In this document: positions 25,111 through 29,192 of the stretch, piece after piece
How positions within the stretch are numbered: position 1 is the stretch's first letter
Layout of the letters: every line of letters starts with the position of its first letter
Assembly (NCBI GenBank): GCA_030706405.1
Contig: JAUZOO010000001.1
Span: 329,762-393,761 of the forward strand
Length of the DNA: 64,000 nucleotides
Direction: 5' to 3'
Origin: Bacteroidota bacterium
Lineage (GTDB): Bacteria; Bacteroidota; Bacteroidia; Bacteroidales; JAAUTT01
Position numbers and translations under genes: made by a program
The notes under the pieces: model-generated
Told to the model about the DNA's origin: nothing
Databases searched by the model: none
Seen by the model: only the letters and a program-made list of their open reading frames with translations

Positions 25111-25323
25111 CCCCCGTGTTGGGCGAAGTTTTTACTTCGTCCGACTATCTTTGGAAGCCTCTACTTCCACTGCATTTAGGCAGACTATAAATAGCGAATG
25201 CTACTAAAGATAGACCGACGTTGCGAACTAAGCGGAGCGGTCTCTCGAACGAAAGTGAGAAATGCAACGCCGAACAACTTCGACTTACAGGTTTTACCAA
25301 GCTATGGAGAACAGGGGAATTTT
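25111..25323 (+). repeat. Structured ~210-bp repeat, copy 2
   Basis: Second direct copy. It shares with copy 3 the start CCCCCGTGTTGGGCG and is almost identical to copies 1 and 3 through GAGAACAGGGG. Differences cluster in the GGAAGC hairpin loop. It lies between the RAYT remnant and the 3' end of the truncated sensor gene. Confidence 0.92.
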
Positions 25324-26605: not shown

Positions 26606-26815
26606 CCCCCGTGTTGGGCGAAGTTTTTACTTCGTCCGACTATCTTTGGAAGCATCTGCTTCCATTGCATTTTGACAAACTATAAATAGCGAATGCTACC
26701 GAAGATAGACCGACGTTGCGAACTAAGCGGAGCGGTCTCTCGAACGAAAGTGAGAAATGCAACGCCGAACAACTTCGATTTACAGGTTTTACCAAACTAC
26801 GGAGAACAGGGGATT
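26606..26815 (+). repeat. Structured ~210-bp repeat, copy 3
   Basis: Third direct copy, matching copy 2 from CCCCCGTGTTGGGCG to ACAGGGGA with scattered substitutions. It fills most of the 379-bp gap between the divergent sensor and Cys-rich genes; the rest of the gap shows no gene. Confidence 0.92.
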
Positions 26816-27744: not shown

Positions 27745-27765
27745 GATAAATTTAAATCTTCCCTA

Positions 27766-27868
27766 GCTGACGCGCGTTTGAAACGCGTGCCCAAATTTAA
27801 CCATCGTTTGCAACGAGATTGCAAAGCAAAAATGGTATTAGCCGCACGCGTCACAGACGCGCGCCAGC
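27766..27868. repeat. BIME-like pair of REP hairpins
   Basis: Two 25-nt arms, 27766-27790 (GCTGACGCGCG...) and 27844-27868 (...GCGCGCCAGC), are imperfect inverted repeats of each other, and each also folds alone. Between them, TTTGCAA (27808-27814) and TTGCAAA form a small inner hairpin. This is the head-to-head arrangement of bacterial interspersed mosaic elements mobilised by RAYT transposases. Confidence 0.75.
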
Positions 27869-27888
27869 GACAAAGCCGGGAATAAAAC

Positions 27889-27924: not shown

Positions 27925-28266
27925 TCCCACCCCGGGACTGTACATTCAAAACCTACGGAAACGAATCCCAGCTCGGGACGGCCTCCCAAAATTCAAAACA
28001 CCAAATCCAGATCCGGGATATGGCTTCTAAAAACTCAGGCACGCCGTCCCAGGTTGGGATTATACTTCTAAAAAGTCAGGCAGCAGATCCCGCGCCGGGA
28101 TTTGGTGTTTTGAAACCAGGGCATTAAATCCCGGCGCGGGATGACGCTTCTAAAAATTCAGGTAAGGAATCCCGATGCGGGACGACACTTCTAAAACTTC
28201 TGGCGGCATATTTCCCATGATAAATTGCCATAAAAATTTTTTGACAGCATATTTCCCGCGGGAAAT
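27925..28266. repeat. Array of nine ~41-bp units, each with a small TCCC/GGGA hairpin
   Basis: Hairpins of form TCCCR-NNN-YGGGA begin at 27925, 27966, 28006, 28047, 28088, 28129 and 28170. Two diverged units begin at 28213 and 28254. Steps are 41, 40, 41, 41, 41, 41, 43 and 41 bp. The stem is kept while the 3-nt loop differs in every unit (ccc, gct, atc, ggt, cgc, gcg, atg). Between hairpins, units 3, 4, 6 and 7 share a second block, CTTCTAAAA followed by TCAGG in three of them; others are more diverged. The last unit is a perfect 16-bp palindrome at 28251-28266. It ends 124 bp before the DUF6261 gene. Confidence 0.9.
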
Positions 28267-28390
28267 CCCGTTTTTAGCCGCCCTTACGAAGCTTCCTCCT
28301 AAAAAACAACCGTTTAAAAGTTTAGATTGTTTTGTTTTATCGGCTAAAAAAAATATTTTTATAAAATCAATCCCTTAACTAATAACATTT

Positions 28391-29137
28391 ATGACTAAAA
28401 TTGAAGTTTTAAGCCTTCACAGTTTTCGCAACGACGACCATCACCAGTTTATGAGCTATGTGGACAAGTTAATCTTAACGCACCAAACCACCGAACTGGG
28501 TGTTCAGGGCCTGTACCTCGATTTCAAAACATTGCTCGACAAGGAATCGTCGATTAATAGTTTGGTACAAACCAGCATCAAGTCCAAAATGATTGTTGAT
28601 CTCGACTCGCAGCGCGATAATACCTGGAGCGCTATCAACACCAAGGTAAAAGCATCGTTGTTAAGCCCGGTGGCCGATGAGGCCGAAAGTGCCCGCATTT
28701 TAAAAATCGTCCTCGATAAGCATGGCGATGTCCGTAACCGTTCGTACCACGAGGAAAGCTCGGCCATTTCGGGTTTGGTGAGAGATTTGCAGAACAGCCC
28801 TAATGCAACCCATGCACAAATAATTGGCATCACCAGTTGGGTTGAATCCTTAAAAACTCAAAACGAAAATTTTATTACTATCCTCGACGAACGCAGTGAG
28901 GAATATAGCGAGCGTCCGGACAGCAACGTTCGCCTAATCCGCGAACAGATTGACCCGATTTATCAGCAGATGGTTGAAAAAATAAACGCTTCCATTGTGC
29001 TCGAACTTGCCAAACCAGCAGTCGAAAGTTTTGTGTTAAAGCTCAACGAAAAAATAGCTTATTTCAAAACTACCATTGCCTCCCGCCAGGCTCGCAGCAA
29101 GGACAAAGCCGCCGAAACCTCAACAGAAAAAGCATAA
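28391..29137 (+). CDS. DUF6261-family protein
   Basis: 248 residues, soluble and almost wholly helical by composition, with no signal peptide. It matches my recollection of DUF6261, a Bacteroidota family of unknown function, in length and in the opening KIEVLSLHSFRNDDHHQFMSYVDKLI. A later SYHEESSAISGLVRDLQ segment and a long C-terminal helix ending in a basic, charged tail (RQARSKDKAAETSTEKA) are also seen. It has its own terminator and lies directly downstream of the hairpin array. The 124-bp leader is AT-rich and holds no other gene. An array-linked nucleic-acid-binding role is speculation. Confidence 0.75.
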   Translation: MTKIEVLSLHSFRNDDHHQFMSYVDKLILTHQTTELGVQGLYLDFKTLLDKESSINSLVQTSIKSKMIVDLDSQRDNTWSAINTKVKASLLSPVADEAESARILKIVLDKHGDVRNRSYHEESSAISGLVRDLQNSPNATHAQIIGITSWVESLKTQNENFITILDERSEEYSERPDSNVRLIREQIDPIYQQMVEKINASIVLELAKPAVESFVLKLNEKIAYFKTTIASRQARSKDKAAETSTEKA

Positions 29138-29158: not shown

Positions 29159-29192
29159 AGCCCCGACTGGTATAATACCGGCGGGGCTTTTT
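29159..29192 (+). terminator. Terminator after the DUF6261 gene
   Basis: AGCCCCG (29159-29165) pairs with CGGGGCT (29182-29188), with GGTAT/ATACC inside, followed by a T-run. Confidence 0.9.

Follow-up and report, generated by a model that had tools for sequence, protein, structure and literature searches.

Tandem palindromic arrays upstream of DUF6261 genes in Bacteroidales: candidate private protein-DNA pairs

Genes of the DUF6261 protein family in Bacteroidales are commonly preceded by tandem arrays of short, frequently palindromic units. The association recurs across the family and is linked to the gene, the spacing of the units is locked, the units are on average symmetric with their symmetric columns the more conserved, the array sequences are private, and matching solo arrays are present elsewhere in the genome. 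We propose, and give the proposal about an even chance, that each DUF6261 protein recognises double-stranded DNA in its private array, in the way that an iteron or an operator is bound, and likewise in the solo arrays that match it. The locus described first lies in a stretch of 64,000 nucleotides (hereafter the window), where a sequence-only reading had placed a hairpin array 124 bp before a DUF6261 gene with no gene between them. Its features are as follows, by window position.

27925–28266, plus strand: tandem array of nine palindromic units with a 40–41 bp step, seen as identity at lag 41 and as nine regular cores
27925–27937, no strand assigned: core 1, TCCCACCCCGGGA
27966–27978, no strand assigned: core 2, TCCCAGCTCGGGA
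28006–28018, no strand assigned: core 3, TCCAGATCCGGGA
28047–28059, no strand assigned: core 4, TCCCAGGTTGGGA, of a type shared with the solo array G000:C6:47.4-47.6k
28088–28100, no strand assigned: core 5, TCCCGCGCCGGGA
28129–28141, no strand assigned: core 6, TCCCGGCGCGGGA
28170–28182, no strand assigned: core 7, TCCCGATGCGGGA
28210–28225, no strand assigned: core 8, of the second type, degenerate, ATTTCCCATGATAAAT
28251–28266, no strand assigned: core 9, of the second type, ATTTCCCGCGGGAAAT, a type shared with the solo array on contig C21 (L259:8929-9223)
28267–28390, plus strand: AT-rich leader of 124 bp, from the array to the start codon
28391–29137, plus strand: DUF6261 gene (PF19775), 248 aa, predicted to be all-helical (AlphaFold pLDDT 95), with a basic C-terminal tail
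about 29159–29192, plus strand: terminator-like hairpin and T run 3' of DUF6261 (-21.9 kcal/mol, z -4.4)

Cores 1 to 7 are of the type TCC[C/A]-n5-GGGA and cores 8 and 9 of the type ATTTCCC...AAAT, and successive cores are 41, 40, 41, 41, 41, 41, 40 and 41 bp apart. At lag 41 the array is 54% identical to itself, a value that 2000 dinucleotide shuffles never attain at lags between 20 and 99 (99.9th percentile of the shuffles, 36.5%), and it contains six exact TCCC-n3..6-GGGA cores, compared with a shuffle mean of 0.09 and a maximum of 2. It ends exactly 124 bp before the ATG at 28391, with no credible gene between. The cores, the shuffles and the gap thus confirm the arrangement that had been read from the sequence, and it is general across DUF6261 loci. 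Tandem Repeats Finder at default settings detects only about two of the window copies, because the units have diverged. Just 5' of the array, and separate from it, lies a palindromic block, GACGCGCGTTTGAAACGCGTGC ... GCACGCGTCACAGACGCGCGCC (27760–27875), which is unique in the window's genome save for 33 bp in contig C17. Two near-identical 51-aa frames (25145–25300 and 26640–26795, minus strand) are positioned 1.5 kb apart in the window and mark a duplicated DNA segment.

The window protein matches Pfam PF19775 with an E value of 4.8e-39 (134 bits, against a curated cut-off of 27), and DUF6261 is the only family to score above the Pfam cut-off in it. Two further points of the sequence-only reading hold at this locus: the protein is helical, the AlphaFold model being all-helical with a mean pLDDT of 95, and a hairpin with a T run does follow the gene at 29159–29192, a hairpin that is absent from the output of a generic terminator scan. 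Within the family alignment the conserved residues include D72, R75, D76, N158, F161, R168 and R184, and many members share a basic, R-x-G-R-like C-terminal tail. Comparison of the predicted structure with nucleic-acid-binding folds, which had been suggested, was less informative: Foldseek gave no match at E <= 0.001, a VIA search gave Z scores of up to 10.5, and solved and viral structures yielded generic helical matches only. Sequence libraries hold no function for DUF6261, PADLOC found no defence-system match for three DUF6261 proteins, Pfam found no transposase, replication-initiator, Nop or Cas domain in the window protein, and in the literature searched DUF6261 appears only in a single, unrelated paper.

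The window's genome has five DUF6261 genes. The family is patchy and often multi-copy: 45 of 393 genomes from the order carry it, and all 14 control genomes lack it. We assembled 77 distinct DUF6261 loci from whole genomes, named public contigs and 20-kb stretches; those on public contigs were gathered with a closer DUF6261 alignment, the broad alignment being too poor in conserved stretches. With an array called by Tandem Repeats Finder within 700 bp upstream of the gene, 60 of the 77 loci have one, and in the other 17 this tool and distance detected none nearby. The density of arrays with a period of 40–43 bp is 1021 per Mb over the 500 bp that precede the start codon, compared with about 17 per Mb over the remainder of the flanking 10 kb to either side, an approximately 60-fold enrichment that rules out a random placement of arrays relative to DUF6261. 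The supposition that arrays may recur upstream of DUF6261 is therefore borne out, with an orientation that is constant among relatives, and the lack of arrays at homologues elsewhere, which would have refuted it, is not seen. All four DUF6261 genes found in 400 kb of genome G197, sampled in evenly spaced stretches, have an array directly upstream, and the same arrangement is present in a named species, Prevotella nigrescens; the hosts are gut and environmental Bacteroidales. In the P. nigrescens record NZ_CP082843.1 the annotated DUF6261 start overlaps the array (L290:5839-6001), and the true ATG is likely to be near L290:6001. We found no relative in viral contigs, and a viral origin was set aside on that ground. 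Two short unannotated gut records labelled 'Bacteriophage sp.' do contain one.

What stands out in these arrays is their step rather than their sequence. Array similarity vanishes below about 40–45% protein identity, those arrays that are similar share their orientation to the gene, and, counted from similar pairs, 61 arrays comprise about 45 unrelated sequence families. The best lag is nonetheless 41 in 33 of the 61 and 42 in 26, a length of 41 or 42 bp is found in 238 of 262 inner units, and when units are stacked the linkers are seen to vary in sequence and to keep their length. One turn of B-DNA is about 10.5 bp, such that 41–42 bp corresponds to four turns. Spacings between symmetry centres within arrays peak near multiples of 10.5 bp, at 41–42 bp and also at 11, 20–21, 31–32, 61–62 and 73 bp, although the secondary peaks are suggestive and non-independent, since the counts are raised by related loci and by the copies inside each array. 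Columns of the best stem are more conserved than columns elsewhere (0.892 versus 0.821; 42 of 53 loci, p ~1e-6). The stem score exceeds the 95th percentile of shuffled units in only 22 of 60 consensus units, so that the symmetry is weak in many arrays, and non-stem columns are about 82% identical between units of one array.

Neutral slippage, by which these would be ordinary unstable tandem repeats present by chance, does produce tandem repeats, and the units within one array are indeed alike. We regard it as scarcely credible for units of 41–42 bp in about 45 unrelated sequence families, with a position specific to the gene and with symmetric columns that are better conserved than the linkers. 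A coding origin was also considered, 42 and 21 being multiples of three, and rejected; there is no codon-phase bias, stops are present, and 41 is not such a multiple. As a separate observation, of 17 cases in which a unit consensus has an A- or T-run of at least 4, 10 have the run centred 15–17.5 bp away from the middle of the palindrome, approximately one and a half helical turns, a count that related loci inflate.

Arrays are also found apart from DUF6261. A sample of about 800 kb of the window's genome contains 13 further arrays, none of them beside a DUF6261 gene, which together with the array at C6:47.4k gives 14 solo arrays. For five of these, one of the DUF6261-linked arrays in the genome is a match, scoring 46–85, where arrays from other genomes, used as the null, reach at most 28: C6:47.4k and C21:107k match the window family, two others the L003 array and the fifth the L002 array. 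Linked arrays thus have dispersed relatives, as REP elements do. Relative to genes, the solo arrays are found in every orientation and show no promoter preference, many are near ordinary genes, and in G197 most match no sampled DUF6261 array. A congener without DUF6261 (G004) has two 42-bp arrays in 163 kb (L128:7585-7733 and L131:19275-19403), and arrays are therefore not confined to DUF6261 genomes.

These dispersed copies raise the possibility that array and gene form a selfish duplicating unit akin to REPtrons, as REP elements with RAYT transposases are called (PMC3733652, PMC2817692), the protein promoting the spread of the array and the solo arrays being its offspring or relics. The patchy presence of the family (45 of 393 genomes of the order), the many paralogues per genome and the matching solo arrays would all fit such a unit, as would the site directly before ileS, which in congeners lacks DUF6261 and its array; the neighbours in those congeners differ, so no clean insertion boundary can be drawn. 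We nevertheless consider a selfish unit distinctly unlikely. DUF6261 has no transposase domain, and PF01797 (the Y1/HUH transposase) is absent both from the protein and from the window's whole genome while being found in 5 of 14 control genomes; the paralogues and their arrays are strongly diverged, and few solo arrays are found per family.

Two arrays in G197 that do not belong to DUF6261 introduced two more protein families, for which further loci were collected from other genomes. F2 is a helical family of 227 aa, often with a C-terminal CarboxypepD_reg domain (for example G197:C1:1702971-1703651; loci L160-L189), and F3 is a family of 207 aa in which the N-terminus is helical and the C-terminus fn3-like (for example G197:C1:1903760-1904380; loci L190-L219). 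Upstream arrays are present at 15 of 29 loci for F2 and at 20 of 30 for F3, without any coding signal in them. Their autocorrelation peaks at 21, 42 and 63 bp, as expected of direct repeats stepped at two turns, whereas DUF6261 arrays peak only at 41–42 bp. Neither F2 nor F3 proteins have a detectable relation to DUF6261 (hhalign probability 3% for F2 versus DUF6261, and 43% for F2 versus F3). Other array-associated proteins were seen in the same genome. An array of 42/84 bp lies directly upstream of each of two related proteins of 133 and 116 aa (L111:8237-8521 and L111:15816-15951), which by eye resemble XRE-type HTH proteins, and an array lies directly downstream of each of two related proteins of 245 and 263 aa (L116:10370-10624 and L117:4564-4795), with a possible C-terminal HTH for which there are weak matches only.

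Because F2 and F3 arrays precede proteins with no detectable relation to DUF6261, the binder could be a third protein that they share. A host nucleoid or topology factor would in that case bind all of the arrays, with DUF6261, F2 and F3 merely situated behind them, for instance where arrays insulate or boost variable genes. The helix-turn-stepped arrays before 15 of 29 F2 and 20 of 30 F3 genes agree with this, as do the many solo arrays near ordinary genes. We think it rather unlikely, since each array family has a private sequence and one sequence-specific binder cannot read them all, and since the step follows the protein family, at 41/42 bp for DUF6261 and 21 bp for F2 and F3. That array type follows protein family suggests instead that the arrays are read by these proteins or by a specific partner of each.

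Whether such a reader would meet the array as RNA or as DNA can be addressed from the pattern of substitutions. The sequence-only reading had speculated that the protein may process, bind or use the hairpin units; in an RNA account of this the array is a transcribed 5' leader of the DUF6261 mRNA, and its hairpins are bound or processed, either for feedback or as small RNAs. TAnnTTTG promoters are enriched 5' of the arrays (22, versus 7.6 expected from shuffles; with a -33 box, 9 versus 0.9) and there is no promoter enrichment between array and gene, the array ends only 40–80 bp before the start codon in several loci, and the window array folds better than its shuffles (z -6.0). With Bacteroidetes-type promoters enriched 5' of them, some arrays are probably transcribed, so that some probability stays with an RNA role that the tests below weaken. 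The related suggestion that array and gene form one transcript is likewise plausible for part of the family but gains nothing at the window itself, where the leader has no exact TAnnTTTG promoter and no canonical promoter is found on either side of the array.

Against the RNA account, the opposite strand folds as well (z -5.1), and in the fold the units pair with one another rather than as nine separate hairpins; Rfam gives the window array only matches below the gathering scores. Selection on RNA hairpins would predict tolerance of G.U on the sense strand and common paired changes. Among stem mismatches on the sense strand of all arrays, G.T numbers 91 and A.C 108; of 421 departures from the most frequent pair, no more than 20 are compensatory, a count that contradicts an impression, gained by eye, of widespread compensatory stems. 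In addition, the step keeps to helical turns even between arrays of unrelated sequence, the F2 and F3 arrays are 21-bp direct repeats, and solo arrays occur in every orientation to genes. We thus consider the RNA account unlikely, although it and the shared third binder are the chief alternatives. The mismatch types, the few compensatory changes, the folding of both strands and the helix-turn step favour double-stranded DNA, and, with support from several tests, we infer that the ligand of the array is DNA rather than RNA.

The most likely working for the DNA-binding proposal is that the upstream array presents two-fold symmetric double-stranded sites on one face of the helix at a four-turn (41–42 bp) spacing, and that the private array is bound cooperatively, either by DUF6261 itself, which would probably act as a dimer, or by a partner on which it depends. 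Binding would control the DUF6261 gene itself, and the same binder may occupy those few solo arrays, scattered through the genome, that belong to its sequence family, thereby linking or marking extragenic places. We infer from comparative data the identity of DUF6261 as the binder, its dimerisation, the autoregulation and the function of the solo arrays. More tentatively, and at somewhat less than an even chance, several families (DUF6261, F2, F3 and perhaps more) may each be the reader of a private array with a step fixed at two or four turns, such that many mutually orthogonal pairs can coexist in one genome and solo arrays act as extra docking sites, for example in chromosome organisation or in copy counting or control.

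DUF6261, a family without a function, thereby gains a concrete candidate partner in its own upstream array, and a whole-turn step kept by arrays of unrelated sequence offers a strong physical lead on a protein without a known domain. If each protein does read only its own array, the loci would constitute a large natural set of orthogonal protein-DNA pairs, useful as genetic tools and for studying the divergence of specificity. That F2 and F3 genes show this anatomy too suggests that a broader layer of genome organisation has been overlooked in abundant bacteria of the gut and the environment.

Among known systems, REP elements with their RAYT transposases resemble the present loci in having extragenic palindromic repeats beside a gene and matching copies elsewhere in the genome. 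DUF6261 arrays differ in being strictly periodic and tandem, and the lack of a Y1 transposase in protein or genome rules out REP/RAYT identity; by eye, no common GTAG/CGTC tag was seen in stacked unrelated units. As in CRISPR and in TIGR-Tas, in which an array is next to the gene of one protein family and Tas has a Nop domain (PMC12045711), the DUF6261 array adjoins the gene of one protein family. Unlike Tas, DUF6261 has no Nop domain by Pfam, and unlike CRISPR there are no unique spacers, non-stem columns being largely shared between units, and no Cas domain; both systems are ruled out on these grounds. The parS/ParB, parC/ParR and matS/MatP systems have symmetric sites, clustered or dispersed, that are read by a small protein which is sometimes encoded nearby. 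DUF6261 loci likewise have symmetric sites, clustered or dispersed, near a gene for a small protein, but DUF6261 contains no matching domain and there are many parallel private pairs per genome. Plasmid iterons are tandem direct repeats at whole-turn spacing directly upstream of a replication gene. DUF6261 arrays are similarly tandem repeats at whole helical turns (41–42 bp) upstream of a gene, and by analogy the product may bind the repeats and autoregulation of DUF6261 would be expected. Unlike iteron systems, DUF6261 lacks a replication-initiator domain, and its loci lie on chromosomes, where a genome has several to many of them, each with a private array; we know of no origin at DUF6261 loci. 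Such array-protein pairs are not described in the literature searched, which covered few subscription journals. An iteron-like mechanism, if proven, would itself be of a known kind.
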